This document shows positions 30,410 to 57,446 of a stretch of 64,000 bases of DNA, piece by piece. The position numbers and the translations under genes were made by a program. Under the pieces are notes generated by a model that saw nothing but the letters and a program-made list of their open reading frames with translations, did no database searches and was not told the DNA's origin. Origin of the DNA: Cryobacterium sp. N22 (GTDB lineage: Bacteria > Actinomycetota > Actinomycetes > Actinomycetales > Microbacteriaceae); the NCBI RefSeq assembly GCF_002929555.1, contig NZ_PJJP01000033.1, forward strand, positions 1-64,000, in the 5' to 3' direction. The stretch's first letter is position 1, and each line of letters opens with the position of its first letter.

Positions 30410-30423
30410 TCGAAACGTTTCGA
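30410..30423. promoter_or_regulatory. LacI-type operator of the GH31/GH1 operon
   Basis: TCGAAACGTTTCGA is a perfect 14-bp palindrome between the lacI stop and the binding-protein start. It matches the site upstream of lacI at 31557 and, apart from one base, the site at 12360. It is very likely the operator through which the neighbouring LacI controls this operon. Confidence 0.75.
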
Positions 30424-31488: not shown

Positions 31489-31556
31489 CTGGACTCCATC
31501 GTCGGTCGGATTGTGCGGGATCGATTGCGTCGGGCAACCGAGCGGCGGGCGATTCG

Positions 31557-31570
31557 TCTAAACGTTTCGA
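31557..31570. promoter_or_regulatory. LacI-type operator upstream of lacI
   Basis: TCTAAACGTTTCGA has one mismatch from the perfect palindrome at 30410. It lies 69 bases upstream of the lacI start. The position fits autorepression. Confidence 0.65.
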
Positions 31571-31664
31571 CTGCCTCGGAAGGGAGCCTACGACAGACTT
31601 CCTCAGTTCCGCAAGTAGTTTGTGGTTATTGACGACAAATGCCAGATCAGCGACTCCTGCCCGC

Positions 31665-31824
31665 GGGGGCGACACACACGCACGTCACGAGGTCTCGACA
31701 AGCTCGACCAACGGGACGGGGGCGACACACACACGTCACGAGGTCTCGACAAGCTCGACCGACGAGACGGGGCGACCAGCGGGACAAGCGCGACCACTTC
31801 GCTGGTCGAGCCTGTCGAGACCCC
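31665..31824. repeat. tandem and inverted GGTCTCGACAAGCTCGACC intergenic repeat
   Basis: A unit containing CACGTCACGAGGTCTCGAC followed by AAGCTCGACC occurs twice with a 51-base period (from 31681 and 31732). An inverted, slightly different half (CTGGTCGAGCCTGTCGAGACC, about 31802-31822) follows. The 364-bp gap between lacI and the ROK gene contains this block plus the lacI promoter, and no convincing gene. Such ggtctcgacaagctcgacc elements are, as I recall, widespread between genes in Microbacteriaceae. The long hairpin they form could act as a bidirectional end-of-transcript signal. Confidence 0.75.
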
Positions 31825-31851
31825 GCAAGACAACCCTCGAACGCTGGTCGG

Positions 31852-33069: not shown

Positions 33070-33098
33070 GGGTGGGTCACGGTCCTCTCGGGTGCGGT

Positions 33099-33119
33099 GC
33101 CCGACGGGACACGTCGGGC
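33099..33119 (-). terminator. hairpin between the permease and ROK genes
   Basis: GCCCGAC and GTCGGGC pair as a 7-bp stem around GGGACAC in the 60-base gap upstream of the permease stop on the ROK side. Since both genes run on the minus strand and the permease precedes the ROK gene on the chromosome, the element lies between the ROK start and the permease stop. It may therefore weaken read-through from the transporter into the regulator. Confidence 0.45.
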
Positions 33120-33129
33120 TGCGTCAGTG

Positions 33130-34347: not shown

Positions 34348-34352
34348 CGCGC

Positions 34353-35885
<1,533 letters not shown>

Positions 35886-35911
35886 TGCGCTCTCCTGTTT
35901 TGCTGGTGGAC

Positions 35912-35974
35912 CGGGCACCCGGTTTCCCGGGTGCCCGTCTAGGAGGCCGGCCTGCTCACTCGGGCAGGCCGGCC
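35912..35974 (-). terminator. two strong hairpins between xylose-binding protein and ATPase genes
   Basis: CGGGCACCCGG pairs with CCGGGTGCCCG (35912-35937, 4-base loop), and GGCCGGCCTGC pairs with GCAGGCCGGCC (35945-35974). Both stems are 11 bp and perfect. They lie in the 100-base gap after the binding-protein stop. They probably make the upstream binding protein much more abundant than the membrane components by partial termination or by blocking 3' exonucleases. Confidence 0.7.
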
Positions 35975-35986
35975 GGGGTCGGCTGG

Positions 35987-37114
35987 TTAGAGGCCGACAT
36001 CCGATGCCTTGATGAAGCCGGAGTCGATGAGCTTGGACTGCACGTCGTCCTTGACGACGACCTCGGGGTCGAGCAGGAAGGACGGCACGACCTTCACGCC
36101 GTTGTCGTAGGTCTCGGTGTCGTTGACGGTGACCTCGTCGCCGGCCACGATCTCCTCGATCATGGTGAAGACCTGCTCGCCGAGCGTGCGGGTGTCCTTC
36201 CAGACCGTCATGGACTGCTCACCGTCGAGGATCGCCTTGACGTTGGCCTTGTCGGCGTCCTGTCCGGTGATCAGCGGGTAGTCGGCGCCCGGCGCGTAGC
36301 CGGCCGACTTCAGCGATGCGATGATGCCGATCGCCAGGCTGTCGTTCGGGGAGAGCACCACGTCGACCTTCTCGTCGCCGGTGTAGAAGGACGACAGGCG
36401 GTTGTCCATCTCGGACTGCGCCTTGTCGCTGGCCCAGCCCTGGATGCCGATCGAGGCCCAGTCGTCGTTGGAGGCGGGCGACTGGCCGCTCGGAACCACG
36501 AGGACGCCGCTCTCCACGTAGGGCAGCAGAACGTCCCAGGCGCCGGAGAAGAAGAACTTGGCGTTGTTGTCGTCGGGGCTGCCGGCGAACGGTTCGATCG
36601 AGATCGGCCCGGTCGCGTTGGCCAGGTCGAGCTCGGTCTGAAGGAACTCGCCCTGCAGCTGGCCCACCTTGTAGTTGTCGAAGGTCGCGTAGTAGTCCAC
36701 GTCCTCGGTGCCGTTGATCAGGCGGTCGTAGGCGATGACGGTGGCGTCCTGTTTCTTGGCCTCGGCGAGCACCGGGGCGAGCACCTCGCCGTCGATGGCG
36801 GCGACCACGAGGATCTTGGCGCCGCCGGCGACCTGGTTCTGGATCTGGCTGATCTGCTGGTCGGTCTTGTTGTCGGCATACTGCAGGTCGACCGTGCAGT
36901 CGGCGTCTTCGAGCAGCGTCTTGAGCTGCTCGCCGTCGTTGATCCAGCGTTCCAGCGAGCGGGTCGGCATCGAGATGCCGACGTTGCACTCGGCACCGGC
37001 GGCTGCGTCGTCGCCGCCTCCTCCGGAGGTTCCGGCATCGGCGGAACAGGACGCGAGCGACAGCGCGAAGATGCCTGTGGCTGCGAGGGCGAGAATTTTC
37101 TTACGTCTGGACAT
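35987..37114 (-). CDS. xylose/multiple-monosaccharide-binding lipoprotein (ChvE/XylF type)
   Basis: This 375-residue type I periplasmic-binding protein has a lipoprotein signal ([17 protein letters not shown]) and a Gly/Ala-rich spacer. The ligand-binding core opens [18 protein letters not shown], which matches ChvE-like proteins for xylose, glucose and arabinose. [17 protein letters not shown] and IAYDRLI are typical. The start at 37114 is preferred to a frame beginning at 37276 because the signal peptide begins there. It is the first gene of the operon and divergent from xylA across a 477-bp region. Confidence 0.92.
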
Positions 37115-37591
37115 AGTTGGAGCTTTCCTCTCTGAGAGCTGCCAGTCACCACAGACCCGAGGGAACGGGCCTGCCAGAGGAGGAAATTCCTGTTCCGCAC
37201 CCTCCCGGCTTTGGGCGGGGCGTGTCAGGGTTACCTCCTTGTAACGGGACATCGCTGTGATTGACCCACCGCGCAAAACGCGGCCTTTGTTGACGGACAG
37301 AACTTATCTCGCCCCTCCTCGGTTTGCCTAGGGGCAAAAGAGGAAATGCCCCTGTTTGGGGGGTTGGTGCGATGCCACCTGCCGCATCGGGACGCATTTG
37401 CGGGGGAAATCGTCGAAACCATTCGATTGTGTCAACGTCGCAGAGAGGCGCGCGGGTGAGCCTCCGGTCAATATGTTGTGGCCGGGGGTTTTCCTTCCGG
37501 CTGCGCGGGCTGCTGTACGGATCGGCCGCGCGTGTGTAATATGTTGGTAATTGCAACAAATCGCCAATGAAGCTGAATCGGAGCACCGAAC
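37115..37591. promoter_or_regulatory. divergent control region between the xylose importer and xylA
   Basis: This 477-bp gap has no convincing gene. It is less GC-rich toward xylA. It contains the proposed XylR site (37538-37558) and an extra AATATGTTG half-site at 37470-37478. At 37311-37361 there is a set of mutually exclusive stems: GCCCCT (37311), AGGGGCA (37330), TGCCCCT (37347) and GGGGGG (about 37358). These could form alternative leader structures in an mRNA starting here. Confidence 0.55.
37538..37558. promoter_or_regulatory. proposed XylR (ROK) operator upstream of xylA
   Basis: AATATGTT, nine bases, then AACA. Within it TGTTG and CAACA form a 5-bp inverted repeat. It lies 34 bases before the xylA start, where a bound repressor would block transcription. 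The same AATATGTT-N9-AACA layout occurs upstream of xylB at 42208. Confidence 0.6.
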
Positions 37592-44043: not shown

Positions 44044-45981
44044 CTAGCTGGTGGGGATCCAGACGCGCATGCCGCCGGGTGCGCGGTTGCCCCAGCGGTA
44101 GTACGGCACCGCGGTCACCGTGATCGCGCCGCCGGCAGACCCGGCAGGATCAGCGAACCCCACAGACCCGGCAGGTCCCGCCTGCCCGGCCACCGGGTAG
44201 AGCTCCTCCGAGTGCGACGCCCGGCGTGACCCGGCGATCCGCACCAGCGGCAACCCCAGGAGCGGGTCGACGGGGCCGAGTTCGGCGGGCACAGCGGCAT
44301 CCACGACGAAATCCTCGAGCACCAGCGACTCGGGCAGGTCGGCCTGTTCGAGCGCGTAGACCAGCGGCCCGCGCGTCACCACGACGCAGCCGCGCACCGC
44401 ATCCACCTGCGGATGCGCCCGTCTCAGCCGCACGGGCATCTCCAGCACCAGCTCGATCGAGCGGAGGTCCGTCCCCGCCACCCGCAGGTAGCCGCCGGTC
44501 ATCGCAGGCTTCACAGCATCCCCGTTCACCCTCAGCCGCCAGGACTCCGCCCAGCCGGGCACCCGCAGGGCCACCTCGCCGCCGCTGAACGGCGCGTCGA
44601 ACTCGATCGCCACCACCCCGTCGACCGGGTAGCCGGTGTTGATCCGGGCCACGGTCGCCACACCGCCGACCTCGCCGAGCTCGATGGTGCCGGTCTCGTA
44701 GAGGTGCAGTTGCAGGGAGCCGTCAGCGGTCGTCGCCGCGTAGTGCTGCAGCGACGAGACCAGCCGGGCCAGGTTGGGCGGGCAGCAGGCGCAGTCGTAC
44801 CAGCCCACCCGGCGGTCCGGGGCCTGCTCGTGGGCGCCGTCCCGGTGGGTGCGCACCTGCAGCGGGTTGGAGTAGAAGAACGCGGTGCCATCACTCGTGG
44901 TCGATCCGGCGACGGCGTTGTACAGCGCGCGTTCGATCTCGTCGGCGAACCGGCCCTCGCCGGTGAGCAGCAGCATCCGCCAGTTGAACTGCACGCTGGA
45001 GATCGCGGCGCAGGTTTCGGAGTACGCCCGGTCCGGCGGCAGCTCGAACGGGTCGCCGAAGGCCTCGTCGCGGTGCCGGGAGCCGAGACCGCCGGTGACG
45101 TACATCTTGCTCTGGTGCACGTCAGTCCAGATGCGTTCGAGGGCGGCGAGCAGCTCGGGGTCGCCGTCCTCCGCGTAGACGTCGGCCACACCGGCGGCCA
45201 GGTACAGCTGGCGCACCGAGTGCCCGGTGGCGCCGGGCACCATCCGTACCGGTTCGTGGTCCTGGAAGTAGCCGTAGCCGAACCGGTCCTCGCCCACGCT
45301 CCGGTGGCCACGCAGGTCGATGAAGCGCTGGGCGAGCTCGAGCCAGCGCCGCTGTCCGGTCACCCGGTACACCTCGACGAGGGCTGTCTCGATCTCCGGA
45401 TGCCCGCAGACCGCGTCAACGCCGCCCGCGCCGAAGCGCTGCTCGACCAGTCCGGCGAATCGCAGCCCCACCTCGAGCAGGTCGGTGCGCCCGCGGGTGC
45501 GCTGCCACGCCACCCCGGCCTGCAGCAGGTGCCCGAGGCAGTACAGCTCGTGGCCCCAGCGGAGGTCGGCGAACTGTTCGTCGGGCTTGGCCACCTGGAA
45601 GAACGAGTCCAGGTAGCCGTCGTCCTGCTGCGCCGCCTCCAGCAGCGCCACGGTGTCGTCGACGAAACCGGCGAAGGCCCCGGCCCCGCCACCGGCACGC
45701 CCGGCCTCCCAGCCGATGGCCTCGAGCACCTTGTAGACGTCGGAGTCGGCGAAGACGAAGCCGCGGAAGATTCCACTCTCCAGGCCGGCCGCGATCCGCA
45801 GGTTGGCCAGTGCGCCCGACTGCTCGAGCTGCTCCACACAGTGCGCCAGGGTGGCGTCCCGGTTCACCCGCTGCCAACTGGCGAGCTGCCCGGTTCCGGT
45901 GAGGTTCACCGCGTCGAGGGGTAGCGGGCGGAGCACGCTGTGCGCCCCGGCGAGCGGGCTGACGGGTCCGTTGATGGGCAT
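44044..45981 (-). CDS. GH127 beta-L-arabinofuranosidase (DUF1680 family)
   Basis: This 645-residue enzyme matches the HypBA1-type family: VNLTGTGQLASWQRVNRDATL near the start, the (alpha/alpha)6 barrel with ETCAAISSVQFNWRML, and the cysteine pair in YDCACCPPNLARL. In characterised members a zinc-bound cysteine is the nucleophile and the Glu in the ETC segment assists. It releases beta-linked L-arabinofuranose, as found in extensin glycans, some pectins and some xyloglucans. There is no signal peptide. The ATG at 45981 has GGAG 5 bases upstream; a longer frame into the GH43 gene is rejected. It is the last gene of the arabino-oligosaccharide operon. Confidence 0.9.
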   Translation of the reverse strand: MPINGPVSPLAGAHSVLRPLPLDAVNLTGTGQLASWQRVNRDATLAHCVEQLEQSGALANLRIAAGLESGIFRGFVFADSDVYKVLEAIGWEAGRAGGGAGAFAGFVDDTVALLEAAQQDDGYLDSFFQVAKPDEQFADLRWGHELYCLGHLLQAGVAWQRTRGRTDLLEVGLRFAGLVEQRFGAGGVDAVCGHPEIETALVEVYRVTGQRRWLELAQRFIDLRGHRSVGEDRFGYGYFQDHEPVRMVPGATGHSVRQLYLAAGVADVYAEDGDPELLAALERIWTDVHQSKMYVTGGLGSRHRDEAFGDPFELPPDRAYSETCAAISSVQFNWRMLLLTGEGRFADEIERALYNAVAGSTTSDGTAFFYSNPLQVRTHRDGAHEQAPDRRVGWYDCACCPPNLARLVSSLQHYAATTADGSLQLHLYETGTIELGEVGGVATVARINTGYPVDGVVAIEFDAPFSGGEVALRVPGWAESWRLRVNGDAVKPAMTGGYLRVAGTDLRSIELVLEMPVRLRRAHPQVDAVRGCVVVTRGPLVYALEQADLPESLVLEDFVVDAAVPAELGPVDPLLGLPLVRIAGSRRASHSEELYPVAGQAGPAGSVGFADPAGSAGGAITVTAVPYYRWGNRAPGGMRVWIPTS

Positions 45982-46024
45982 GAGAGCTCCTGTGACTAGT
46001 GGCGAAAAGCAAACGGCGGGGCGG

Positions 46025-47053
46025 CTATTCCCAGTCCGCGACCGGCCAGCCATCGTCCCAGCGAAGCGGGATGAGGCCGAGTTGGAAGGCGCCGTCCAGG
46101 CCGGCGTCGTAATAGTGGAAGGCGAGGGTGCCGCCGGACACCGACTGACCGCCGGGGCCGACCCTGTCCCCGTCGCTGGAGAGCAGCGGAGTGCCACCGT
46201 CGTCCAGCAGCGCGGCGCCGTTGGCGTCCAGGTACGGTCCGTCCACGGTGTCCGACCGTCCGACGGCGATGTTGTAAGTGCTGTCCACGCCGCGGCAACA
46301 GAAGTCCCGGGAGAAGAACAGGTAGAAGTAGTCGTCGTGCGCGAGCAGGAACGGCGCCTCGAGAGCGTTCACGGCCAGGTCGCGGTCCGCGAGCAACACC
46401 GGTTCGGCGTCGTCGGCGCGCAGCCCGCTCGGCCACTCGAGTTCGACGAGGTGCAGCCCGGAGGAGAATGAGCCGAAGCTCAGCCAGGGTGTTCCGGCGG
46501 CATCCTCGACCACCCCGCCGTCGATCGCGTTATAGCCGGTGCCAACGGAGGTGATCACCTCGCCCCGGTCGACCCACTCGTAGCCGGCCGCATCCGGATC
46601 GAGGGTGCTGTTGGTCGCCAAGGCGATCACCGAGGTGTTCGTGCCGAACAGCGAAGCAGAGTAGTACAGGTACCAGGTGCCGTCGTGCTGATAGAGCTCC
46701 GGCGCCCACAGGTTGTCGACTCCGGGTACCGCCTCCACCAGCCAGTCCGGCTTCTCCTGCCAGACCTCGCCGACGTACTCCCAGTCCAGCCCGTCGACGG
46801 AGCGGCGGATCTGGATGTTGCCGTCCGCGATCTGCCCGTTGCCGGTGGAGTACACGTACGACGCCTCACCATCGGCCCCAGCCACGTAGGCGGGGTCGTG
46901 GGTGGCGATGTCACCGCTGAGCTCGCGGGCCCCCTGCTCGGCCGAGCAACCGCTCAGCACGACCAGGAGCACCGCGGCCAGGGTCAGGACGAACAGGCCC
47001 GCGAGCGTGCCCGCCTGACCCGTTCGTCCTAACCGAGCGCGATCGCCGACCAT
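46025..47053 (-). CDS. GH43 arabinanase-like lipoprotein
   Basis: This 342-residue protein has a long lipoprotein signal (LAGLFVLTLAAVLLVVLSGC), so it is exposed outside the cell. The GH43 five-bladed propeller has its catalytic residues in HDPAYV (base), AIDGGV (pKa modulator) and ALEAPF (acid). NLWAPELYQHDGTWYLYYS is characteristic of endo-1,5-alpha-L-arabinanases. It probably makes the oligosaccharides that the adjacent importer takes up. Its start overlaps the end of GH51 by 25 bases and lacks a good ribosome-binding site, so translational coupling is likely. Confidence 0.88.
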   Translation of the reverse strand: MVGDRARLGRTGQAGTLAGLFVLTLAAVLLVVLSGCSAEQGARELSGDIATHDPAYVAGADGEASYVYSTGNGQIADGNIQIRRSVDGLDWEYVGEVWQEKPDWLVEAVPGVDNLWAPELYQHDGTWYLYYSASLFGTNTSVIALATNSTLDPDAAGYEWVDRGEVITSVGTGYNAIDGGVVEDAAGTPWLSFGSFSSGLHLVELEWPSGLRADDAEPVLLADRDLAVNALEAPFLLAHDDYFYLFFSRDFCCRGVDSTYNIAVGRSDTVDGPYLDANGAALLDDGGTPLLSSDGDRVGPGGQSVSGGTLAFHYYDAGLDGAFQLGLIPLRWDDGWPVADWE

Positions 47054-48534
47054 GAGACGGGAGGCAGCGTCACCGTGAGCGTGCCGTCGGCGATGACCGC
47101 GCCGGCGAGGTCCTTCAGACCCACCCGGTTCTGGTCGGCCAGCGTGTTCTTCGCGTACGGGTCGGCGTCGTGCAGGGTGACGGCTTCCGTGATGGCGGAT
47201 GCGCCGAGCCCGGACACGTCGATGGCCACCTCGATCGATTCGGTCTGACTGCGGTTCACCAGGAACACCGCGCTCGTGCCGGTCTCGGCGTCAGCGGTCA
47301 CGACCGAGTCCACCAGCGGGGCGGCGCCGTACACGGCGGTGTCGTAGGTACCGACGTCGATGCGGGGCGTGAGCACCTCGCCGCGGGCGAGCCTGGAGGT
47401 CACCGAGAACGGGAAGAACGTGGTCTGGCGCCAGGAGGCTCCACCGGGTTCGGTCATGATCGGGGCGATCACGTTCACCAGCTGGGCCAGCGAGGCCGAA
47501 CCGACCCTGTCGTGGTTCTGCAGCAGGGTGATCAGCAGGTTGCCGAGCACGACGGCATCCGCCACCGAGTAGACGTCCTCGAGCTGGCGCGGCGCGAAAC
47601 GCCACTCGTCGTTGACCTCCTCGGAGTCGCGGTGCTCGTCGAGGTACCAGATGTTCCACTCGTCGAAGGAGAGCTGGATGGTCTTCTGGCTGCGCAGCCG
47701 GTGCTTGACGTGGTCGGCGGTGGCCACGACGGTGTCGATGAAGTACTTCATCTCCAGCGACGACGCCAGGTACGAGTCCAGGTCGCCGTTGCGCTCCTGG
47801 TAGTAGGCGTGGCAGGAGATGTAGTCGACCGACTCGTAGCTGTGCTCGAGCACCACTCGCTCCCACTCACCGAAGGTGGGCATCGCCGAGCCGGAGGATC
47901 CGCAGACCACGAGCTCCAGCGACGGGTCGGCGGTCTTCATCGCCGAGGCGGTGCGAGCCGCGATCTTGCCGTAGTCGTCGGAGGACATGTGGCCGACCTG
48001 CCACGGGCCGTCCATCTCGTTGCCGAGGCACCACATGCGGATGTCGTACGGTTCGGTCTTGCCGTTCGCGACGCGCTCGTCGGCCAGGGCGGTGCCGGCC
48101 TCGCCGTTGGCGTATTCAAGCAGGTCGAGAGCCGATTCGATACCGCGGGTGCCGAGGTTCACGGCCATCATCAGTTCGGAGCCGGTCAGTTCGCACCAGC
48201 GGCCGAACTCCTCCAGGCCCACCTGGTTGCTCTCCAGCGAGTGCCAGGCCAGGTCGCGGCGCACGGGGCGCCGGTCGCGGGGGCCCACGCCGTCTTCCCA
48301 CTTGTAGCCGGAGACGAAGTTGCCGCCGGGGTAGCGGATGGTGGTGGAGCCCAGCTCCTTGACCAGGTCGACCACGTCGAGGCGGAAACCGTCCTCGTTG
48401 GCGGTGGGGTGGTCGGGCTCGTAGATCCCGTCATAGACGCAGCGGCCGAGGTGCTCCACGAAGGAGCCGAAGATGCGCCGGTTGATGGTGGCGACCACAT
48501 TGGTGCGGTCGATACTGATTCGTGCGGTGGTCAT
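47029..48534 (-). CDS. GH51 alpha-L-arabinofuranosidase
   Basis: This 501-residue enzyme is a typical intracellular GH51. It has GNFVSGYKWEDGVGP in the barrel, the acid/base Glu in WCLGNEMDGPWQ and the nucleophile Glu in QLSFDEWNIWY. It removes terminal alpha-L-arabinofuranose from arabino-oligosaccharides or arabinoxylan fragments. It sits between the secreted GH43 and the YesL-like gene in an importer operon. Free L-arabinose must be metabolised by genes outside this window, because no araA/B/D are present. Confidence 0.94.
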   Translation of the reverse strand: MTTARISIDRTNVVATINRRIFGSFVEHLGRCVYDGIYEPDHPTANEDGFRLDVVDLVKELGSTTIRYPGGNFVSGYKWEDGVGPRDRRPVRRDLAWHSLESNQVGLEEFGRWCELTGSELMMAVNLGTRGIESALDLLEYANGEAGTALADERVANGKTEPYDIRMWCLGNEMDGPWQVGHMSSDDYGKIAARTASAMKTADPSLELVVCGSSGSAMPTFGEWERVVLEHSYESVDYISCHAYYQERNGDLDSYLASSLEMKYFIDTVVATADHVKHRLRSQKTIQLSFDEWNIWYLDEHRDSEEVNDEWRFAPRQLEDVYSVADAVVLGNLLITLLQNHDRVGSASLAQLVNVIAPIMTEPGGASWRQTTFFPFSVTSRLARGEVLTPRIDVGTYDTAVYGAAPLVDSVVTADAETGTSAVFLVNRSQTESIEVAIDVSGLGASAITEAVTLHDADPYAKNTLADQNRVGLKDLAGAVIADGTLTVTLPPVSWSAIALG

Positions 48535-48623: not shown

Positions 48624-49328
48624 TCAGGCCAGCGACGCGCGCCGGGCGGGCGCGAGCGGCAGGGCACCGTCTTCATTGCGCACGGCGCCGTGCGCGGGGT
48701 GCGCGGCGTCCAGGGCGGCGAGCCGGTGGTCGATGAGCCAACCGGCCACGAACAACGGCGCCGAGGCTCCGATGAGCGGCATCAGCACGCCGAACTGGAA
48801 CAGGGCGAGCGTGAGCGCCCCCAGGGCCAGGATCAGGGACAGGCTCAGCAGCGGGGACACGAACGGCAGCACGAACGCGTACCGCCAGATCGACCGGGCA
48901 GAGTCGCGGTAGCGGGTGCAGATCGTGATCGCCGAGAACGCCGCGAGCAGGGTGCCGACCGAGACCACGACGAGCAGAACGAGGAGCACGGCGCTGACCG
49001 GGCTGCCGGCCACCGCGGTGGTCTGGAAGGCCACCAGGTCGAGGAAGACCAGCACCGCGGCGAGCTGGAACGGGATTGCGACGACCGCGAGGTGCCAGAA
49101 CTGGGCTCGATAGGCGGTGATGAAGTCCCGCACCAGCCTGTCACTGGGTTGTCCGGCGCGTAGCCGGCCGAGCAGGATCGATGCGGCCGTGGCCGCAGGG
49201 AACACACCCAGCACGATCAGCCCGGCGAGAGTGCCCGCGATGAAGAGCAGGTTGATCACCACGAGCGCGATCGCGAACCGCAGCCAGTGCATCAGCTTCC
49301 CGGCCCAACCGATGGAGTAGTCGTCCAT
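48624..49328 (-). CDS. YesL-like (DUF624) membrane protein
   Basis: This 234-residue protein has about five hydrophobic segments. The opening part (WAGKLMHWLRFAIALVVINLLFIAG) and the LGVFPAATAA motif are typical of the YesL/DUF624 family. Family members occur next to CUT1 importers of plant oligosaccharides, but their function is unknown. The start at 49328 is 1 base after the GH43 stop, so the two are co-translated. The C-terminal ~30 residues are hydrophilic and variable. Confidence 0.82.
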   Translation of the reverse strand: MDDYSIGWAGKLMHWLRFAIALVVINLLFIAGTLAGLIVLGVFPAATAASILLGRLRAGQPSDRLVRDFITAYRAQFWHLAVVAIPFQLAAVLVFLDLVAFQTTAVAGSPVSAVLLVLLVVVSVGTLLAAFSAITICTRYRDSARSIWRYAFVLPFVSPLLSLSLILALGALTLALFQFGVLMPLIGASAPLFVAGWLIDHRLAALDAAHPAHGAVRNEDGALPLAPARRASLA

Positions 49329-49329
49329 G

Positions 49330-50748
49330 TCAGGCGCCTCTCGTGCCGAACCAGGCCACTCCGTCGGCGGCAAGGCCGCTGAAGGAGAGGGCGGGCCTGG
49401 CATTCGCCCAGTCCCAGCTGGCGAAGACCACGGCGTCGAGTTCGGTGCCGGATGCGGCGCCGCTTGTGTCGGCGCCGCCGACCACGAGCCGCACGAGTTC
49501 GGTGCTGCCGTCGAAGAGCCGCTCGGGCGCATCCGCGGTCACCGTGCGCGCCGGTGCGACGGAGACAGTGTCGGCGTTCACCAGGGCACTGGACTCCGGG
49601 GCCAGGCGCACCGCACGCCACGGACCGGCCAGGCTCACCGGTGCGGCCAGACGCTCCGCATCGGCACCGGCGAACGGTTGCGGCGAGACGACGGGCCAGC
49701 CGGCGTCGGTGAAGAAGGTGCGCCGCAGCTGCACGACGTGCTGGCTGGGGTCGTCGGCGAAGCGCACGTGGTGCACCATGAAGTACTCGTCGACGCCCGT
49801 GCCCGGCTCGATCAGGATCGAGTTGTGCCCGGGAGCGAGCCAGCCCGTGTCGTCACCGAACCGGTGGCTGCCGAGCACCTTGGTGCCGATCAGTGCCGCA
49901 TCGGTGTCGAGGTCGGTCATCGAGTGGCCGAGCAGGTCGGTGTACGGGCCGGTGATCTCCGCGGCCACGGCCACGCGCACGTTGTAGCTGTCGAAGAGCG
50001 AGTCGTAGGAGCAGAACAGCACGTAGCGGTCCTCTTCGCGGCGGTAGACGATGAAGGCGCCTTCGATCGCCCGGTCCACCGACACCGGCCGGCGGGCGAT
50101 GAGGGCGCCCAGGTCGCCCGGCGTCTGCGGCCGGCCTGTCGCGGGGTTCAGCGGCAGCGTGTAGATGCCGGAGAAGAACGACCCGTAGGTCAGCCACGGG
50201 GTGCCGGACCTGTCCACCGTGACGGCCGCGTCGATCGCGTTCTGGCTGTCGGTACCGGCCCGGGTGGCCACAACGACGCCGCGGTCTTCCCACGGTCCGG
50301 CCAGCCGGCTCGCCACGGCCAGGCCGATGGCCGATGTGCTCGAACCGAAGGTGGAGGCCGAGTAGTACATGTGCCACCGCACGTCGGCAGCGTCGTCACC
50401 GGCAGCATCGCTCGGGGCGGCGCCGGGTGCCGGCCAGCGCACGACCTCCGGCGCCCAGAGTCCGGGCGCCTGGCTCCACTCGAATGCGGGGGCGGGCACG
50501 CCGTCCAGGGCGGTGCCCACGAAGGTCCAGTGCACGAGGTCGTCCGAGCGGCGCACGTGCACTCCGGCCGGCACCGAGTCGGCGCCGGCGGCGGCATCCG
50601 TGGAGAACATGTACCAGGTGCCGTCGGTGTCGCGCACGACGGTGGGGTCGTGGGCGTTGCGGGTGCCCCAGGCTGCCGGGTCGCCGGCGGGGGCCGGCGC
50701 CAGGCTGCGCAGCGTCTCGCCGGGCAGGGTCTGGTCGATGAGGGTCAT
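49330..50748 (-). CDS. GH43-family cytoplasmic arabinofuranosidase/xylosidase
   Basis: This 472-residue enzyme has a GH43 propeller (RNAHDPTVVRD base, QNAIDAAVTVD modulator, RAIEGAFIVYR acid) and an additional C-terminal domain of about 130 residues of beta-sandwich appearance. No signal peptide is seen, so it acts inside the cell on imported oligosaccharides, unlike the lipoprotein GH43 at 46025. alpha-L-Arabinofuranosidase, exo-arabinanase or beta-xylosidase activity are all possible. It follows the permease gene by 2 bases. Confidence 0.88.
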   Translation of the reverse strand: MTLIDQTLPGETLRSLAPAPAGDPAAWGTRNAHDPTVVRDTDGTWYMFSTDAAAGADSVPAGVHVRRSDDLVHWTFVGTALDGVPAPAFEWSQAPGLWAPEVVRWPAPGAAPSDAAGDDAADVRWHMYYSASTFGSSTSAIGLAVASRLAGPWEDRGVVVATRAGTDSQNAIDAAVTVDRSGTPWLTYGSFFSGIYTLPLNPATGRPQTPGDLGALIARRPVSVDRAIEGAFIVYRREEDRYVLFCSYDSLFDSYNVRVAVAAEITGPYTDLLGHSMTDLDTDAALIGTKVLGSHRFGDDTGWLAPGHNSILIEPGTGVDEYFMVHHVRFADDPSQHVVQLRRTFFTDAGWPVVSPQPFAGADAERLAAPVSLAGPWRAVRLAPESSALVNADTVSVAPARTVTADAPERLFDGSTELVRLVVGGADTSGAASGTELDAVVFASWDWANARPALSFSGLAADGVAWFGTRGA

Positions 50749-50750
50749 GG

Positions 50751-51719
50751 TCAGCCCTTCCCGCCGGTGAGGGCGACGGATTCGATGATCTGGCGCTGGA
50801 AGATGATGAATACGATCAGCACGGGCAGCAGCGCGATGAAGGACGCCGCCATGATCAGCGGGTAGTCGGTCTGGCTGGCGTACTGGGCGTTGAAGCTCGC
50901 GATCACGAGCTGCAGGGTCTGCTTCTCCGGCGTGTTCAGGTAGATGATCGGGGCCAGGTAGTCGTTCCACACGGCCATGAACCAGAGGATGAACTGGGCG
51001 GCCATGGCGGGGCGGATGGCCGGGAAGATCAGCCTGCTGAAGATCTGCAGGTAGGAAGCGCCGTCGAGCTTGGCGGCCTCGATGATCGAGTCCGGCACGT
51101 TCTCGAGGTACTGCTTGAGGAAGAAGATCATGATGATGTTGCCGAACAGGCCCGGCACGATCAGCGGCAGCAGGGTGTCGACCCAGCCGATCTCGGCGAA
51201 GACCATGAACTGCGGGATCATGATGGTCGGGAACGGGATCATCAGGCCGGCCAGCAGCATGAGGAACACGGCGTTCTTGAATGGCATCCGCATCTTCGCG
51301 AAGGCGAACGCGGCGATCGATGAGGTGAGCGAGCCGATCACGGTGACGGTGCCGGCCACGATCAGGCTGTTCCGGATGCCGCTGAGCAGCGGCCCCGCCG
51401 ACCAGACCCGTAGGTAGTTCTCCCACACCACCGGGTCCGGGATCCACTGCGGCGGCAGCGCGAAGATGGCGTCGTGGGTCTTCAGCGAGGTGGAGAAGGT
51501 CCAGATCAGCGGGCCGAGCATCACGACCGCGCCGAGCGAGAGGATCAGCGTGACGAGCACGTTGCCGAGCTTGTACCGAGTGGTGCGGGTCAGGGCGTGA
51601 CCTTTACCGTCCGGTGTGCGGCCGGGGCGGCTGGCCGGGCTGTTGGGGATTCCGCCCTGCGGGTCGAGCAGCGGGGCGCCGGCCTGGACTGCGCCGGGAA
51701 GGGAAGTTGATGTACTCAC
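50751..51719 (-). CDS. CUT1 ABC sugar permease (AraQ type)
   Basis: This 322-residue permease has six helices and an EAA loop (IEAAKLDGASYLQIFSRLIFP). It has a ~45-residue cytoplasmic leader. It resembles AraQ-like permeases for arabino-oligosaccharides, which agrees with the enzymes of the operon. It pairs with the permease at 51731, which precedes it by 11 bases. Confidence 0.9.
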   Translation of the reverse strand: MSTSTSLPGAVQAGAPLLDPQGGIPNSPASRPGRTPDGKGHALTRTTRYKLGNVLVTLILSLGAVVMLGPLIWTFSTSLKTHDAIFALPPQWIPDPVVWENYLRVWSAGPLLSGIRNSLIVAGTVTVIGSLTSSIAAFAFAKMRMPFKNAVFLMLLAGLMIPFPTIMIPQFMVFAEIGWVDTLLPLIVPGLFGNIIMIFFLKQYLENVPDSIIEAAKLDGASYLQIFSRLIFPAIRPAMAAQFILWFMAVWNDYLAPIIYLNTPEKQTLQLVIASFNAQYASQTDYPLIMAASFIALLPVLIVFIIFQRQIIESVALTGGKG

Positions 51720-51730
51720 GGTGGCAACCT

Positions 51731-52645
51731 TCAGTCAATCGAGAACTGGTTGCGGCGGTTGAGCCGGAATTGGATGACGGTGACGATGAAGATGATCAGT
51801 CCGAGCACGATGGACATGGCCGATGCGTAGCCCATGTGCAGGTTGTTGAAGGCCTGGCGCCAGATGTACCAAACGATGGAGGCCGAGCTGAATTCGGGGC
51901 CACCGAGCGGGGTCATGATGTTGATCTCGATGAAGATCTGCGAACCGCCGATGATGCTGGTGACGACGAGGAAGAAGGTGACCGGGCGCACCATCGGGAG
52001 GGTGATGTTGCGGAACTGCTGCCAGGTGCCGGCCCCGTCGAGGGCGGCGGCCTCGTAGAGGTACCGGGGCACCGATTGCAGCGCGGCCAGGTAGAGCAGC
52101 ATGGAGTAGCCCAGGCCCTTCCAGGTGGCCATGATGATCAGCGCGGGCTTGACGGTGTCCTTATCGGCGAGCCAGTTCGGGCCCTGAATACCGACCAGGT
52201 CGAGGACCTGGTTGACCAGGCCGAAGTCGCCGTTGTAGGCCCACTGCCACATGATGGCGATCGCGGCGATCGAGGAGATCACCGGGACGTAGTAGACGGT
52301 GCGGAAGAACGTGATGCCGCGCATCTTGCGGTTGAGCCCGAGAGCCAGGGCCATCGAGAGCACGAGGCCGATCGGGATGCCGATCATCAGGAACAGCGTG
52401 TTCCACATCGATTTGAGGAAGTACGGGTCGTTCCACATCTTGATGTAGTTGTCGAGCCCGTTGAACTTCGGCGCCGCGAGTCCGTTCCAGCTCGTGAACG
52501 ACGCGTAGACCGAGTACAGCAGCGGGTAGAGCGTGAAGAGCAGGAACCCGATCAGGGGGATCGCGATGAACAAGAGCGCGATCTGCTGCTCACGCCGATG
52601 TAGACGGGAGCGGCGGGGCTTCGTGCGAAGAACTGTGGTGGACAT
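51731..52645 (-). CDS. CUT1 ABC sugar permease (AraP type)
   Basis: This 304-residue permease has six helices and an EAA loop (YEAAALDGAGTWQQFRNITLP). The ATG at 52645 has AAGGAAG about 8 bases upstream; a longer frame to 52738 is rejected because it would cover the intercistronic hairpin. It is the second gene of the operon after the binding protein. Confidence 0.9.
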   Translation of the reverse strand: MSTTVLRTKPRRSRLHRREQQIALLFIAIPLIGFLLFTLYPLLYSVYASFTSWNGLAAPKFNGLDNYIKMWNDPYFLKSMWNTLFLMIGIPIGLVLSMALALGLNRKMRGITFFRTVYYVPVISSIAAIAIMWQWAYNGDFGLVNQVLDLVGIQGPNWLADKDTVKPALIIMATWKGLGYSMLLYLAALQSVPRYLYEAAALDGAGTWQQFRNITLPMVRPVTFFLVVTSIIGGSQIFIEINIMTPLGGPEFSSASIVWYIWRQAFNNLHMGYASAMSIVLGLIIFIVTVIQFRLNRRNQFSID

Positions 52646-52699
52646 CAGCGATCTTCCTTGACTTGATTCCGAGAACGGGGGCCGGCGAGGGCCGGGGGC

Positions 52700-52740
52700 G
52701 GATGCCGCGGCCACGCGTGGAGAGCGCGGCCGCGGCATCC
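52700..52740 (-). terminator. intercistronic hairpin between binding protein and permease
   Basis: GGATGCCGCGGCC (52700-52712) and GGCCGCGGCATCC (52728-52740) form a perfect 13-bp stem with a 15-base loop in the gap after the binding-protein stop. It is placed like the hairpins at 28976 and 35912. Confidence 0.65.
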
Positions 52741-52749
52741 GGGGCGGTA

Positions 52750-54081
52750 TTAGCCGATACCGGCCTGGAGGTTGGCGTCGTCCAGGAATGCCTGCATCTT
52801 GGGCTGCGCCTCCTTGAGGTAGTCAGCGGCGGTCTGCGTGCCGTCGAGCACCGGCTGGATGTTGGTGAACAGCTCGTCATACCACTCGGCGTTGTAGGTG
52901 TTGTTCGCCGGCAGCGCGCGACCGTAGCCGTTGACGATGTCGAGGAACTCCTGCTTGTTGGCCGGCTTGGTGGTCGAGTCGGCCACCCAGGTGTCGGCCA
53001 TGTCCTTGAGGTTCGGGATCTGCACCCCGGCGTCGACGAGGGTCTGCTGCGCCGTGACATCGGCGGAGAGGTATTCGACGAGCTTGGCGGAGAGCTCGGG
53101 GTCTTCGGTCGTGCTGCCGACGGCGATGCCGAGCGAGCCGACCCAGGTGGCGGACTCACCGGTCTTGCCGGCCGGGTAGGGAATCAGGTCCCAGTCGAAG
53201 TCGAGCTCGGCGTAGGTGGAGACGTCCCACGGGCCCACCGGGAAGAACGCGATCTGGCCGCTCATCCAGCGCTGGTAGGTGTCGAGGGTCTGCGCCTGCG
53301 AGGTGGACGGGGTGATGCCCTCCACGTTGGACAGGTCCGCGAACCACTGCAGCGCCTCGGCGAATTCCGGGGTGTCAACGGTGACCTTGGTGCGGTCCTT
53401 GTTGAGGAAGTCGGCGCCGTTCGACCAGGCGAAGGACTGCAGGCTCCACTGCACGTTGAGGCCGGTGCCCCACTGGTCCAGCTCGCCGTCGCCGTTGAGG
53501 TCGACGGTGAGCTGCTTGGAGATGTCGACGAACTCCTGCAGGGTCAGGGGGGTGTCCACATCGGGAAGCGGGATACCGGCGGCCTCGAACATGGACTTGT
53601 TGTACCCGAAGGAGAACGGGCCGACATCCTTGGGCAGCGCATAAATGGCGCCCTCGCCGACCAGGCTGCCGTCGAAGCGGTAGCTGTCCACGCCGTATTC
53701 CCAGATGTTGTCGAGGTCGAGGGTGTCCGACCCTTCGACGTACTCGGTGATGTCGAGGACGACGCCGTTGTTCACGTAGGCCTGGATGTCGCCCTGGGCG
53801 ATGTAGAACACGTCCGGGATCTGCTTGCCGGCGATGGCCGCCTTGAGCTTGGTCGCGTAGTCATCGGCGGTCGTGCTGATGATCTTGACCTTGACGTCGT
53901 TGGCCTTTTCGAAGGCCTTGATGGCCGTCGTGTACGCGGCCTTCTCGTCTTCGCCGCCGCGGAACATGAATGTGAGCTGCTTCTCACCGGTGTCTGCTGC
54001 TCCTGCCGAGCATCCGCTGAGCAAGAGGCCGGTCGTAGCGATCATTGCTACGGAAGCGGCGATAAGACGTGACTTCTTCAT
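52750..54081 (-). CDS. CUT1 arabino-oligosaccharide-binding lipoprotein
   Basis: This 443-residue family 1 solute-binding protein has a lipoprotein signal (MKKSRLIAASVAMIA, then LLLSGC). The mature fold opens KQLTFMFRGGEDE. It is first in the operon with two permeases, GH43, YesL-like, GH51, GH43 and GH127. Its promoter region holds several TTACAACGTTGTAA-type operators and is shared with the divergent GH27 gene. Ligand assignment is by context. Confidence 0.9.
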   Translation of the reverse strand: MKKSRLIAASVAMIATTGLLLSGCSAGAADTGEKQLTFMFRGGEDEKAAYTTAIKAFEKANDVKVKIISTTADDYATKLKAAIAGKQIPDVFYIAQGDIQAYVNNGVVLDITEYVEGSDTLDLDNIWEYGVDSYRFDGSLVGEGAIYALPKDVGPFSFGYNKSMFEAAGIPLPDVDTPLTLQEFVDISKQLTVDLNGDGELDQWGTGLNVQWSLQSFAWSNGADFLNKDRTKVTVDTPEFAEALQWFADLSNVEGITPSTSQAQTLDTYQRWMSGQIAFFPVGPWDVSTYAELDFDWDLIPYPAGKTGESATWVGSLGIAVGSTTEDPELSAKLVEYLSADVTAQQTLVDAGVQIPNLKDMADTWVADSTTKPANKQEFLDIVNGYGRALPANNTYNAEWYDELFTNIQPVLDGTQTAADYLKEAQPKMQAFLDDANLQAGIG

Positions 54082-54155: not shown

Positions 54156-54177
54156 AACGTTTTACAACGTTGTAACA
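54156..54177. promoter_or_regulatory. paired LacI-type operators in the arabinan operon promoter
   Basis: AAAACGTTTT (54156-54165, perfect palindrome) abuts TTACAACGTTGTAA (54164-54177, perfect 14-bp palindrome) with overlapping ends. The second matches the sites at 54223 and 57433. Both lie within about 100 bases of the binding-protein start, so the LacI at 56297 is the probable regulator. Confidence 0.72.
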
Positions 54178-54222
54178 GTATGTCAGGCTCGAAGCAATCG
54201 CAACGAATTCCAGGAAAAAATT

Positions 54223-54236
54223 CCAACGTTGCAATA
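54223..54236. promoter_or_regulatory. LacI-type operator upstream of the GH27 gene
   Basis: TTCCAACGTTGCAA, an imperfect copy of the 14-bp palindrome, lies about 60 bases before the GH27 start. A weaker AAACGTTA lies just downstream (about 54238). Confidence 0.62.
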
Positions 54237-54295: not shown

Positions 54296-55645
54296 ATGTC
54301 CCTCGAATTCCCCGCTGACCTGGCCACGAACCACGCCGCCTACCCCGTCACCGACCGACCCCCGATGGGTTGGAACTCCTGGGATTGTTACGGCACAACA
54401 GTCACGGAGGCCGAGGTCCTGGCCAACGCCGAATACATGGCCGAACACCTGCTGCGCTTCGGCTGGGACACCATCGTCGTCGACATCGCCTGGTACGACC
54501 CCGCCGCCCGCGCCGGCGGCTACAACGACGATCCCGGCATCGAGATGGATGCCTGGGGCCGCCAGCTGCCCGCGACCAACCGGTTCCCGTCGGCGGCCGG
54601 CGGCGCCGGCTTCGCCCCGCTCGCCGCCCGGGTGCACGCGCTCGGCCTGCGCTTCGGGCTGCACATCATGCGCGGGATCCCGCGCACCGCGGTGGCCGGC
54701 GCCGTGCCGGTGTTCGGCCTGCCCGGGGTGAGCGCCGCCGACATCGCCGATCCGGACTCCGTCTGCACCTGGAACCCCGACAACATGGGCCTGAACCACG
54801 ACCACCCCGGCGCGCAGGCCTACTACGACGCTCAGGTCGCCCAGTTCGCCGCCTGGGGCGTTGACTTCATCAAGGCCGACGACATGCTGGCCCCGTACCA
54901 CTCCCGGGAAATCGAGGCCTATGCCCGCGCCATCGCCCGGTCGGGGCGACCGATCACGCTCAGCCTCTCCCCCGGCACCGACCTGTCGCTCGCGCACCGT
55001 GAGCACCTGGCCGGCCACGCCGAATTCTGGCGGGTCTCCGACGACCTCTGGGATCGCTGGGAGGACATCTACGACCAGTTCGGCCGCCTCGCCCGCTGGG
55101 CGCCGCACCAGCGCCCGGGCGCCTGGGCCGACGCCGACATGCTGCCGCTCGGGCGCATCGGCATCCGCGCCGAGCGTGGCGAAGACCGGATGAGCCGGCT
55201 CACCGCCGACGAGCAACGCACCATGCTTACCCTGTGGTGCCTGGCCCGGTCCCCGCTGATGTTCGGCGGCGACCTTCCGTCAACCCCGGCGGAGACCCTG
55301 GCGCTGCTCACCAATGCGGCAGTGCTGCGCATGCACCGGGACTCGCATGGGCAGCGCGAACTCTGGCGGGAGGGTGACACCGTGGTGTGGAGCTCGGTCG
55401 CCGGGTCGCCGGAGGACACCGGCGCGGCGGGAGCGCCCGCGGCCGTCTACGTAGCCGTGTTCAACACCGGGGAGACCGCACGGGACATCCGGCTGCCGCT
55501 GTCGGCGCTGGGGGTGCCGGCGACCACCGCCGGTGCCACCGACCTCTGGGACGGGCGGTCGCTCGAGGTGGCGGGCGGCGAGCTCACCGTAGCCGTGCCG
55601 GCGCATGGCACCCGGCTGGTGCTCTTCGGCAGCCCGCCCGCCTGA
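54296..55645 (+). CDS. GH27 family enzyme, probable beta-L-arabinopyranosidase or alpha-galactosidase
   Basis: This 449-residue enzyme has a GH27 barrel and a C-terminal antiparallel beta domain: PPMGWNSWDCYG near the start, the nucleophile Asp195 in DFIKADDM and an acid/base Asp in EFWRVSDDLWD. Typical alpha-galactosidases have a DDGW or DDCW pair that binds galactose O4/O6. Here it is DIAW (Asp63-Ile64). As I recall, an isoleucine at this place is found in the Streptomyces GH27 beta-L-arabinopyranosidase. Together with the arabinose operon this favours L-arabinopyranose as substrate. There is no signal peptide. ATG with GGAG 7 bases upstream. Confidence 0.85.
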   Translation: MSLEFPADLATNHAAYPVTDRPPMGWNSWDCYGTTVTEAEVLANAEYMAEHLLRFGWDTIVVDIAWYDPAARAGGYNDDPGIEMDAWGRQLPATNRFPSAAGGAGFAPLAARVHALGLRFGLHIMRGIPRTAVAGAVPVFGLPGVSAADIADPDSVCTWNPDNMGLNHDHPGAQAYYDAQVAQFAAWGVDFIKADDMLAPYHSREIEAYARAIARSGRPITLSLSPGTDLSLAHREHLAGHAEFWRVSDDLWDRWEDIYDQFGRLARWAPHQRPGAWADADMLPLGRIGIRAERGEDRMSRLTADEQRTMLTLWCLARSPLMFGGDLPSTPAETLALLTNAAVLRMHRDSHGQRELWREGDTVVWSSVAGSPEDTGAAGAPAAVYVAVFNTGETARDIRLPLSALGVPATTAGATDLWDGRSLEVAGGELTVAVPAHGTRLVLFGSPPA

Positions 55646-55749: not shown

Positions 55750-56283
55750 ATGGTGCAACTAAATACTCGTGCCGCGTTGGCGGTTGTCACGGCTGGGGTC
55801 GTGTTGTTCGTGTTGTCGGGGTGCGGATCGTCGGAGGCGCCCCCGGCGGAAGCGGTGGTGTCTCAGGAAGACCAACTGCAGGTGTTCGTTGAACAGGCGG
55901 ATGCCTGGGGTGCCGACATTATTGCGCAGGCTCCCGAGGAGGAAGCAAAGGCCATCTACGAGAATTTCGGGGGCAGCCGCCAGGCAGGCGCTGACTACGC
56001 GGAATGGCCGCAGTACTACTACTGGGCCCAAGGTGTAGATCTTTATCCCGATGGCCCTCGGACACCGACCGAGTTCGCCGATGACCTGGAGCCATGGCTG
56101 GAGGATCAGGGCTGGGTGCGAAACCTGGACAGTGAGTTCTCTCCGGGTGAGGAGAGCTATGTGCGTGGCTACGTTCGCGGGCGGTATTCGCTCGAGGTAG
56201 AGGTGTATACGGTGACGCCTCCGCAGGCCCAATCACTGAACTTCACTATCGTGACGCCAGACACCGATCAGAACCCGCAGTGA
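55750..56283 (+). CDS. small lipoprotein of unknown function
   Basis: This 177-residue protein has a lipoprotein signal (LAVVTAGVVLFVLSGC). The mature part is acidic and rich in Tyr, Trp and Glu (ADYAEWPQYYYWAQGV), with no domain that I recognise. The gene is less GC-rich than its neighbours, with more A/T at third positions, which hints at separate acquisition or low expression. A G-rich stretch (GGGGGA) directly precedes the ATG. It is convergent with the lacI gene, whose stop is 13 bases away. No link with sugar use can be shown. Confidence 0.7.
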   Translation: MVQLNTRAALAVVTAGVVLFVLSGCGSSEAPPAEAVVSQEDQLQVFVEQADAWGADIIAQAPEEEAKAIYENFGGSRQAGADYAEWPQYYYWAQGVDLYPDGPRTPTEFADDLEPWLEDQGWVRNLDSEFSPGEESYVRGYVRGRYSLEVEVYTVTPPQAQSLNFTIVTPDTDQNPQ

Positions 56284-56296
56284 GCTCTCCGCCGAG

Positions 56297-57310
56297 CTAC
56301 GCCGCCGTCGACTCCCGGTCGATGACCGTGTAGTCGGCCAGGTACACCTCGGGCACCCGTGGGGTGACGCCCTCCTCGATGCGCTGCACAAGCAGGCGCA
56401 CCGCGGTGTCGGCAATCTCGTCGCGGCCGGGGTCGATGGTCGACAGGGTCGGCAGCGAGTACTTGGTCTCGTCGAGAGCGTCGAAGCCGATGAACATCAC
56501 GTCCTCCGGCACCCGCAACCCGGCAACCTGGGCCACCCGCATGGCGCCAAGCGCCAGGGTGTCGTTGAGCCCGAACACCGCGTCAAAACTCACCCCGGTG
56601 TCGATCAGCGCGCGCATCGCCTCGGCGCCGTCCACCCGGTGCCACCTGCCCACGTTGCAGATCAGGGCGGGGTCGAACGGGATGCCGGCCTCGGCGAGGG
56701 CCTCGCGGTAGCCCTGCACGCGCAGCACGGCCGAACCAACCACCTCACCCTCGTGCGCGCCGATGATGGCGATCCGGCGACGACCCCGGCTGATCAGGTG
56801 CATGGTCGCGGCCTTCGCGGCCTCCACGTTGTGCATGGTGACGTGGTCGACGGGCCCGCCGAAGACCCGCTCGCCGAGCAGCACCATCGGGTAGCCCACG
56901 TTGAGCAGAGCGGCATCTTCGGTGCTCAGGCCCAGCGGGCTGAAGATCAAGCCGTCGGTGAGCTGCAGCCGCGGGCTCGAGAGCATGGCGATCTCACGGT
57001 CGCGGTCGCCACCGCCGGTCTGCTCGAGGAGCACCACGAGGTGACGGCGTTCGGCGGCCTGGATGATCGCATCCGCCAACTCGGCGAAGTAGCTCAGGCT
57101 GAGCTCGGGCAGGGCCAGGCCGATCACACCCGTGCGGCCGGAGCGCAGGCTGCGCGCCGAGATATTGGGCTTGTAGCCGAGCTCGTCGATGGCCGCGCGC
57201 ACCCGCTCCCTGGTCGCGGGCCGGATGTGCTGGAAGTCGTGGACCACGTTGGAGACGGTTTTGATCGACACCCCGGCGAGCGCCGCCACATCGCGCAGTG
57301 TTGCTGCCAT
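56297..57310 (-). CDS. LacI-family repressor (arabino-oligosaccharide regulon)
   Basis: This 337-residue regulator has a LacI HTH (LRDVAALAGVSIKTVSNVVH) and a sugar-binding domain. Its hinge (VSNVVHDF) differs from the other two LacI proteins of the window, which agrees with its different operator (ACAACGTTGT core rather than GAAACGTTTC). A TTACAACGTTGCAG site 123 bases upstream suggests autoregulation. The same pattern occurs three times between the arabinan operon and GH27. The effector is probably an arabinose-containing oligosaccharide. Confidence 0.9.
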   Translation of the reverse strand: MAATLRDVAALAGVSIKTVSNVVHDFQHIRPATRERVRAAIDELGYKPNISARSLRSGRTGVIGLALPELSLSYFAELADAIIQAAERRHLVVLLEQTGGGDRDREIAMLSSPRLQLTDGLIFSPLGLSTEDAALLNVGYPMVLLGERVFGGPVDHVTMHNVEAAKAATMHLISRGRRRIAIIGAHEGEVVGSAVLRVQGYREALAEAGIPFDPALICNVGRWHRVDGAEAMRALIDTGVSFDAVFGLNDTLALGAMRVAQVAGLRVPEDVMFIGFDALDETKYSLPTLSTIDPGRDEIADTAVRLLVQRIEEGVTPRVPEVYLADYTVIDRESTAA

Positions 57311-57432: not shown

Positions 57433-57446
57433 ATTACAACGTTGCA
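57433..57446. promoter_or_regulatory. LacI-type operator upstream of lacI (56297)
   Basis: TTACAACGTTGCAG matches the sites at 54164 and 54223 in the central ACAACGTTG. It lies in the 248-base gap between lacI and the divergent acetyltransferase gene, in a position for autorepression. Confidence 0.65.

Follow-up and report, generated by a model that had tools for sequence, protein, structure and literature searches.

A predicted GH27 Group VI beta-L-arabinopyranosidase divergent from an arabinan-type gene cluster in Cryobacterium sp. N22

A gene of Cryobacterium sp. N22 encodes a GH27 protein with the motif DIAW at the position of the galactose-binding DDxW of alpha-galactosidases, and it stands divergent from a set of sugar transport and hydrolase genes. 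This raises the questions of (i) which sugar the enzyme would remove; (ii) whether its Ile is a chance substitution or the mark of a group; and (iii) which polysaccharide the neighbouring genes would serve. The gene lies at 54296–55645 on the plus strand of the stretch analyzed here, the first 64,000 nucleotides of contig NZ_PJJP01000033.1 (hereafter, the window). We put at roughly 90% the probability that it encodes an intracellular Group VI beta-L-arabinopyranosidase in an arabinan import and degradation cluster under LacI control. The enzyme type and the explanation of its specificity by Ile are already published, the window protein being a further member; what is new here, a LacI-type operator-like palindrome that is conserved at related loci, together with natural Ala variants of the enzyme, is a small addition.

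The GH27 gene and its closest known relatives

The reading frame is open through 449 codons with zero internal stops, and the Asp63-Ile64 that the sequence-only reading had placed at the site of the galactose-binding Asp pair can be read directly from it: residues 61–69 are VVDIAWYDP, with the D63 codon at 54482–54484, the I64 codon (atc) at 54485–54487, and A65 and W66 following (motif codon positions were counted by hand starting from 54296).

54296..55645, plus strand: GH27 Group VI beta-L-arabinopyranosidase (Abp-like, predicted), 449 aa; from ORF, PDB, Pfam, tree and model
54482..54493, plus strand: D63-I64-A65-W66 codons; I64 is equivalent to GsAbp Ile67 and stands where DDxW has its second Asp
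54509..54547, plus strand: Group VI-specific insertion, residues 72–84; from the alignment of Group VI against DDCW rows
Residues 100–104, 128–153 and 290–301, plus strand: further Group VI insertions; from the same alignment
54878..54880, plus strand: predicted nucleophile D195 (GsAbp D197); from alignment, conserved in all 101 Group VI rows
55043..55045, plus strand: predicted acid/base D250 (GsAbp D255); from alignment, conserved in all 101 Group VI rows

Membership of GH27 is supported by matches to PF16499 (Melibiase_2, 67.7 bits, cut-off 23) and PF17801 (Melibiase_C, 41.2 bits, cut-off 22.9), while an NCBIfam search at E 0.001 returned zero models for the protein. Both catalytic Asp are present at the nucleophile and acid/base positions: D195 is the predicted nucleophile because the D197A entry 4nxk has A in its column, and D250 aligns with D255 of GsAbp, which we take to be the acid/base residue (Ile67, D197 and D255 of GsAbp were numbered by counting from Abp residue 19 in the printed alignment). 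In CpArap27 of Chitinophaga pinensis, D242 is catalytic (PMC4598101). As no signal peptide was seen by eye, the GH27 protein is predicted to be cytoplasmic.

The gene evolves under purifying selection (dN/dS 0.21–0.23 against three congeneric orthologues). Between species of the genus it diverges more than most neighbouring genes do, in dN and dS alike; between congeners, the AbnE-like binding protein encoded next to it is 92.8–97.5% conserved versus 84.9–85.6% for the GH27 protein. Decay of the gene, as the neighbours' higher conservation might suggest, is unlikely, since dS is higher too and dN/dS remains low; a separate recombination history may lie behind the higher dN and dS.

Among PDB sequences, the best match was 4nx0 (Abp of Geobacillus stearothermophilus; E 1.9e-127, residues 16–442 aligned), followed by 4nxk, 3cc1 and then, at 2.1e-26, an alpha-galactosidase; VVDIAW of the window protein aligns over VVDIQW of Abp. 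Structure prediction, which the sequence-only reading had proposed as a check, likewise pointed to Abp when carried out on the whole protein. The AlphaFold2 model, built on a 40-sequence alignment (39 of 42 loci tried were used; L079, L081 and L118 have a stop in range and were left out), has a mean pLDDT of 91.3 and a pTM of 0.90, with residues 1–16 below 50. When the best 1000 Foldseek chains were ranked by VIA-align, the top three were the Abp entries 4nx0, 4nxk and 4nzf (Z 55.2, 55.2 and 54.9; 1.3–1.4 Å over 417–418 residues at 50% identity). The entry 3cc1 (BH1870) scored Z 46.7, the alpha-galactosidases of Nicotiana (6f4c), rice (1uas) and human (1r46) 41.2, 41.0 and 37.4, and SaArap27A 35.6.

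GsAbp of G. stearothermophilus T6 (4nx0, 4nxk, 4nzf) thus resembles the window protein in fold, Ile, both catalytic Asp and Group VI insertions, although it has DIQW where the window protein has DIAW. CpArap27 is likened to the window protein by its published description, as a Group VI enzyme with Ile56, but differs in being reported as monomeric and as inactive on sugar beet arabinan (PMC4598101). SaArap27A of Streptomyces avermitilis (3a21–3a23) is, like the window protein as predicted, a beta-L-arabinopyranosidase with the GH27 fold, yet it has Glu99 in place of Ile and two extra domains including a CBM13, and is an outlier in Group IV. The alpha-galactosidases 1uas, 6f4c and 1r46 share the fold and the catalytic Asp pair but have Asp at the galactose-binding position (PMC4598101); alpha-galactosidases also differ in being without the Group VI insertions, as judged on six bacterial DDCW rows rather than on these three structures.

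Isoleucine at the specificity position and the Group VI clade

At the key position alpha-galactosidases have Asp and beta-L-arabinopyranosidases Glu or Ile, while two fungal enzymes of flexible specificity have Cys (PMC4598101); another bulky replacement, Tyr, is found in APSE of Arabidopsis (PMC5853685). The sequence-only reading had pointed to a GH27 beta-L-arabinopyranosidase with Ile here, which is correct for both GsAbp (Ile67) and CpArap27 (Ile56). It had explained the replacement by a lost contact to O6; this stands as a part of the explanation but not as the sole one, because the published account is mainly of steric exclusion, in which Ile should collide with a galactoside at its C6 (PMC4598101). 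Mutagenesis of the Ile has been published for CpArap27 and GsAbp: the I-to-D mutants gained weak galactosidase activity, with the inserted loops thought to matter, and engineered I56A CpArap27 takes both substrates about equally (PMC4598101). Since the Ile mutants are only feeble galactosidases, other features contribute; specificity in GH27 is not fixed by the key residue alone, which counts against an assignment based on Ile.

Group VI was defined by McKee and Brumer 2015 (PMC4598101) by this Ile together with loops L6, L7 and L8, and has GsAbp, CpArap27 and Bh1870 as members. We compared the window protein with near relatives of this group (the best 80 of 583 matches and further genomes, a sample in which rarer variants at the key position may be missed) in a quick maximum-likelihood tree, drawn by midpoint, and in a residue tally, both of 107 rows. 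The rows were drawn from loci L001–L129, apart from L038, L039, L040 and L042, which gave no tblastn match. Further exclusions were L001 (the window itself, entered as the query row), L004, L009, L012 and L016 (each repeating the gene of another locus), L118 (its extraction was truncated by a stop close to where the match begins), and, as distant or fragmentary, L025, L026, L028, L031–L037, L041 and L046–L049; L139 and L140 are likewise outside the tree and tally.

In the tree, 101 rows, including the window protein, GsAbp and BH1870, split from six DDCW rows with an SH-aLRT of 100, and the window protein falls on an actinobacterial branch of the Group VI clade. The key position in these 101 rows is Ile in 97, Ala in three and Trp in one, while the first Asp of the pair (Asp63) is retained in all 101. 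All six outgroup rows have Asp at the key position, but they were picked among rows of DDCW type; a fairer control is provided by 18 distinct distant GH27-like rows with the motif aligned, several of which are without Asp (Asp 12, Ala 3, Glu 2, Gly 1, Ile 0; L034 and L049 have no aligned motif and L048 duplicates L033). The insertions at residues 72–84, 100–104, 128–153 and 290–301 are found in 100 or 101 of the 101 rows, GsAbp included, and are gapped in at least five of the six DDCW rows. By the paper's description (PMC4598101), 72–84 (with 100–104), 128–153 and 290–301 fit loops L6–L8. A further insertion, 372–381, occurs in only 6 of the 101 rows and is not a clade feature. Ile64 is thus the mark of GH27 Group VI and not a lone or chance substitution. 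One detail counts against an Abp-like reading: residue 65 is Ala in the window protein, where GsAbp has Gln, the commonest residue (52 of the 101 rows; Ala in 13). The beta-L-arabinopyranosidase specificity of the window protein is predicted from homology, and we consider "beta-L-arabinopyranosidase (predicted)" a better label for 54296–55645 than "Melibiase" or "alpha-galactosidase".

The three Group VI proteins with Ala at the key position (DADWADP; L023, L102:9983-11290 and L103) come from Microbacterium oleivorans and a same-family genome and share one branch with the Ile-type L097. By analogy with I56A (PMC4598101), they may be natural dual-specificity enzymes, and comparing them with Ile-type enzymes could show what else, apart from Ile, determines specificity in Group VI. 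In L102, the neighbouring genes encode a binding protein, two permeases, a GH127 protein, an arabinofuranosidase-type protein and a GH31 protein. The single Trp-type row, L024 (G398), is Group VI-like with DWAW and sits on a long branch; its join may be false.

The divergent cluster and its LacI-type palindrome

The minus-strand genes divergent from the GH27 gene probably form one operon.

52750..54081, minus strand: solute-binding protein, AbnE-like (arabino-oligosaccharides); 6rjy at E 2.4e-168, lipobox by eye
51731..52738, minus strand: ABC permease 1; Pfam
50751..51719, minus strand: ABC permease 2; Pfam
49330..50751, minus strand: GH43 arabinanase of YxiA/AbnB/BT0367 type, start provisional; NCBIfam models below cut-offs
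48624..49532, minus strand: DUF624 protein, start provisional; Pfam
47029..48534, minus strand: GH51 alpha-L-arabinofuranosidase (ArfA/AbfA); NCBIfam NF051901 over cut-off
46025..47053, minus strand: GH43 endo-1,5-alpha-L-arabinanase with lipoprotein-like N terminus; lipobox by eye, NCBIfam below cut-offs
44044..46122, minus strand: GH127 protein, probably a beta-L-arabinofuranosidase, start provisional; best PDB match 4qjy at E 6e-110

That the gene is divergent from an arabino-oligosaccharide operon, as the sequence-only reading had it, is confirmed by homology, in that the binding protein matches 6rjy far better than the next PDB entry (1.7e-31). An AbnE homologue, two permeases and arabinan-type hydrolases together make up an AbnEFJ-type import cluster. 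Two L-arabinose isomerase genes occur in the genome, one of them on the same contig as the GH27 gene and about 61 kb away from it. The GH127 protein counts against the arabinan-cluster reading insofar as it has no NCBIfam match over cut-off, its sole match, to aceric acid hydrolase, being far below. An Rfam scan of the window at gathering thresholds gave zero matches.

The arabinan/hemicellulose loci of Geobacillus hold abnEFJ, abp, abnB, abfB and the GH51 gene abfA, with abp of strain T-6 carrying a transposon (PMC4194401). GsAbp is thus, like the window protein, accompanied by arabinanases and by an AbnE-like transporter for arabino-oligosaccharides, and the window locus is an actinobacterial counterpart of the Geobacillus locus. 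Compared with the Geobacillus system, which is known to us by description, the window gene is divergent from the transporter operon and has a LacI-type palindrome. A Geobacillus-type arabinan system with an arabinopyranose-uncapping step would therefore also exist in Actinomycetota, here in Cryobacterium. This genus has cold-adapted members.

Among 57 genomes of the genus, the window's included, the GH27 gene was found in four (the window and three at 85–86%) and a Group VI paralogue in two, the window's genome having both; three more genomes gave distant matches only. Across the best 80 of 583 matches, which are the GH27 loci compared, an AbnE homologue of at least 45% identity occurs in 10, and in seven it is adjacent and divergent (Cryobacterium, Sanguibacter, two Demequina, Timonella and two Cellulomonas); two further loci of the genus, L131 and L132, show the same divergence. 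The other 70 have no such homologue within the fetched flanks and count against the arabinan-cluster reading, although many of these flanks are short, so that the linkage count is a lower bound. In plasmid records, homologues were seen only below 60% identity (50/50 by identity band; among the 10 matches listed). We found no literature joining "Cryobacterium" with "arabinopyranosidase".

The region between the GH27 gene and the binding protein gene holds an operator-like palindrome and a weaker copy of it; a copy with one mismatch lies upstream of lacI.

54163..54174, strand not assigned: palindrome TACAACGTTGTA resembling a LacI-type operator, in the promoter region shared by the divergent genes; genome motif search
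54222..54233, strand not assigned: second, weaker copy TCCAACGTTGCA, 2 mismatches; chance matches with 2 mismatches are common in the genome
57435..57446, strand not assigned: copy TACAACGTTGCA, 1 mismatch, upstream of lacI; genome motif search
56297..57310, minus strand: LacI-family regulator, probable repressor of the cluster (predicted); LacI models all below cut-offs, homologues

Within the 4.06 Mb genome, the site at 54163 is the only exact copy of TACAACGTTGTA and that at 57435 the only match with one mismatch. Allowing up to two mismatches gives 20 places versus 14 for a reversed control pattern, so that two-mismatch copies mean little. In the window, the core AACGTT is not enriched (7 versus 4.36 expected, reached by 18 of 100 shuffles), whereas the 12-mer with up to three mismatches is (15 versus 4.35, reached by 0 of 100 shuffles).

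Outside the window, every one of the nine divergent loci carries TACAACGTTGTA, either exactly (L050, L051, L060, L085, L131 and L132) or with a single mismatch (L058, L072 and L078). The stretches searched run between the tblastn match starts of AbnE and GH27 and may include the first ~20 codons of either gene; the L058 copy may sit at or just inside the GH27 start. Of the three AbnE loci without the divergent layout, L055 and L059 also carry TACAACGTTGTA to within one mismatch, and L118 (Gracilibacillus) does not; the 70 loci without AbnE have a single such site in 1,258,232 bases. Homologues of the window LacI protein (55–62% identity) are encoded in five of the clusters (L051, L058, L060, L072 and L085); this protein is a candidate binder of TACAACGTTGTA. 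The cluster is conserved and probably jointly controlled, and the palindrome offers a sequence handle for finding arabinan regulons. Our literature search found no printed TACAACGTTGTA, and the available text of PMC5928203, on bifidobacterial arabinose regulons, contains neither AACGTT nor GH27, its motifs being in figures. The wider proposal, that one conserved LacI repressor acting on TACAACGTTGTA controls arabinan use, GH27 included, across several Actinomycetota families and that the Microbacterium Ala branch is dual-specific, has in our estimate an even chance of being right.

Substrate, alternative readings and proposed mechanism

An alpha-D-galactosidase or alpha-N-acetylgalactosaminidase with an unusual motif would suit a family made up mainly of alpha-galactosidases, whose Pfam models are named Melibiase, and the relative 3cc1 (BH1870) is titled a putative alpha-N-acetylgalactosaminidase. 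That title is only putative, and Bh1870 has been placed in Group VI (PMC4598101); since the window protein has lost the second Asp, carries the Group VI insertions and adjoins an arabinan-like operon, we regard this reading as extremely unlikely. Dual beta-L-arabinopyranosidase/alpha-D-galactosidase activity, for example on arabinogalactan side chains, has precedents in SaArap27A and the Fusarium enzymes, and even GsAbp, with its Ile, has limited galactosidase activity (PMC4598101); moreover, only two PF16499 proteins were found in the genome, both of Ile type. Yet the mixed enzymes carry Glu or Cys rather than Ile, the wild-type CpArap27, an Ile enzyme, prefers Arap to Galp by 1:0 (PMC4598101), and a GH36 protein, of a galactosidase-type family, is encoded elsewhere in the genome, and we consider dual activity very unlikely here.

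An enzyme of the same activity might find its natural substrate in type II arabinogalactan rather than in pectic arabinan. Larch arabinogalactan is a substrate of CpArap27, whereas sugar beet arabinan is not (PMC4598101), so that an arabinan substrate is not guaranteed by the enzyme group, and the role in arabinan use is read from the gene cluster instead. Beta-L-Arap-(1->3)-Ara is found in AGP side chains, but AAfase also freed a little of it from sugar beet arabinan (PMC10688797). In Geobacillus, abp belongs to an arabinan locus (PMC4194401), and the neighbours of the window gene match arabinanases, GH51 arabinofuranosidases and GH127 proteins beside an AbnE-like binding protein. We therefore hold the arabinogalactan alternative to be possible but doubtful.

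On the preferred reading, that of an intracellular beta-L-arabinopyranosidase serving arabinan use, the GH27 enzyme very probably uncaps fragments of plant arabinan by taking off arabinopyranose, as far as gene content and homology can tell. Outside the cell, the membrane-anchored arabinanase would cut arabinan, and the AbnE-like binding protein with its two permeases would import branched arabino-oligosaccharides. Inside, the GH27 enzyme would strip their terminal beta-L-arabinopyranosyl caps, and the GH51, GH43 and GH127 enzymes would finish the uncapped chain to L-arabinose. GH27 enzymes act with retention, and cap removal would proceed by a retaining double displacement with D195 as nucleophile and D250 as acid/base. 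Ile64 would occupy the space of the C6 CH2OH of galactose and would also remove the carboxylate that binds O6, so that galactosides would be disfavoured. The LacI repressor (56297–57310) would bind TACAACGTTGTA at two places, the shared promoter and the region upstream of lacI, and would switch on both arms of the cluster together.

Some further genes were seen beside these. The second PF16499 protein of the genome (L130:8397-9686, minus strand, contig C23) is a Group VI paralogue with DIQW and 57% identity; beside it are encoded a GH36 protein of 1148 aa and a 687-aa protein that carries an arabinofuranosidase C-terminal domain, and near paralogues related to it show a recurring GH51-type match at 28–30%. 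Between the GH27 gene and lacI lies a small lipoprotein-like ORF (55750–56283, plus strand) with neither a Pfam match nor a counterpart in the three congeneric clusters compared. Another sugar ABC transporter is encoded at 30463–37276 on the minus strand (matches to Peripla_BP_4, BPD_transp_2 and an ATPase with two ABC domains); it has another LacI gene, with AACGTT at 30414 and 31561, near its two ends.
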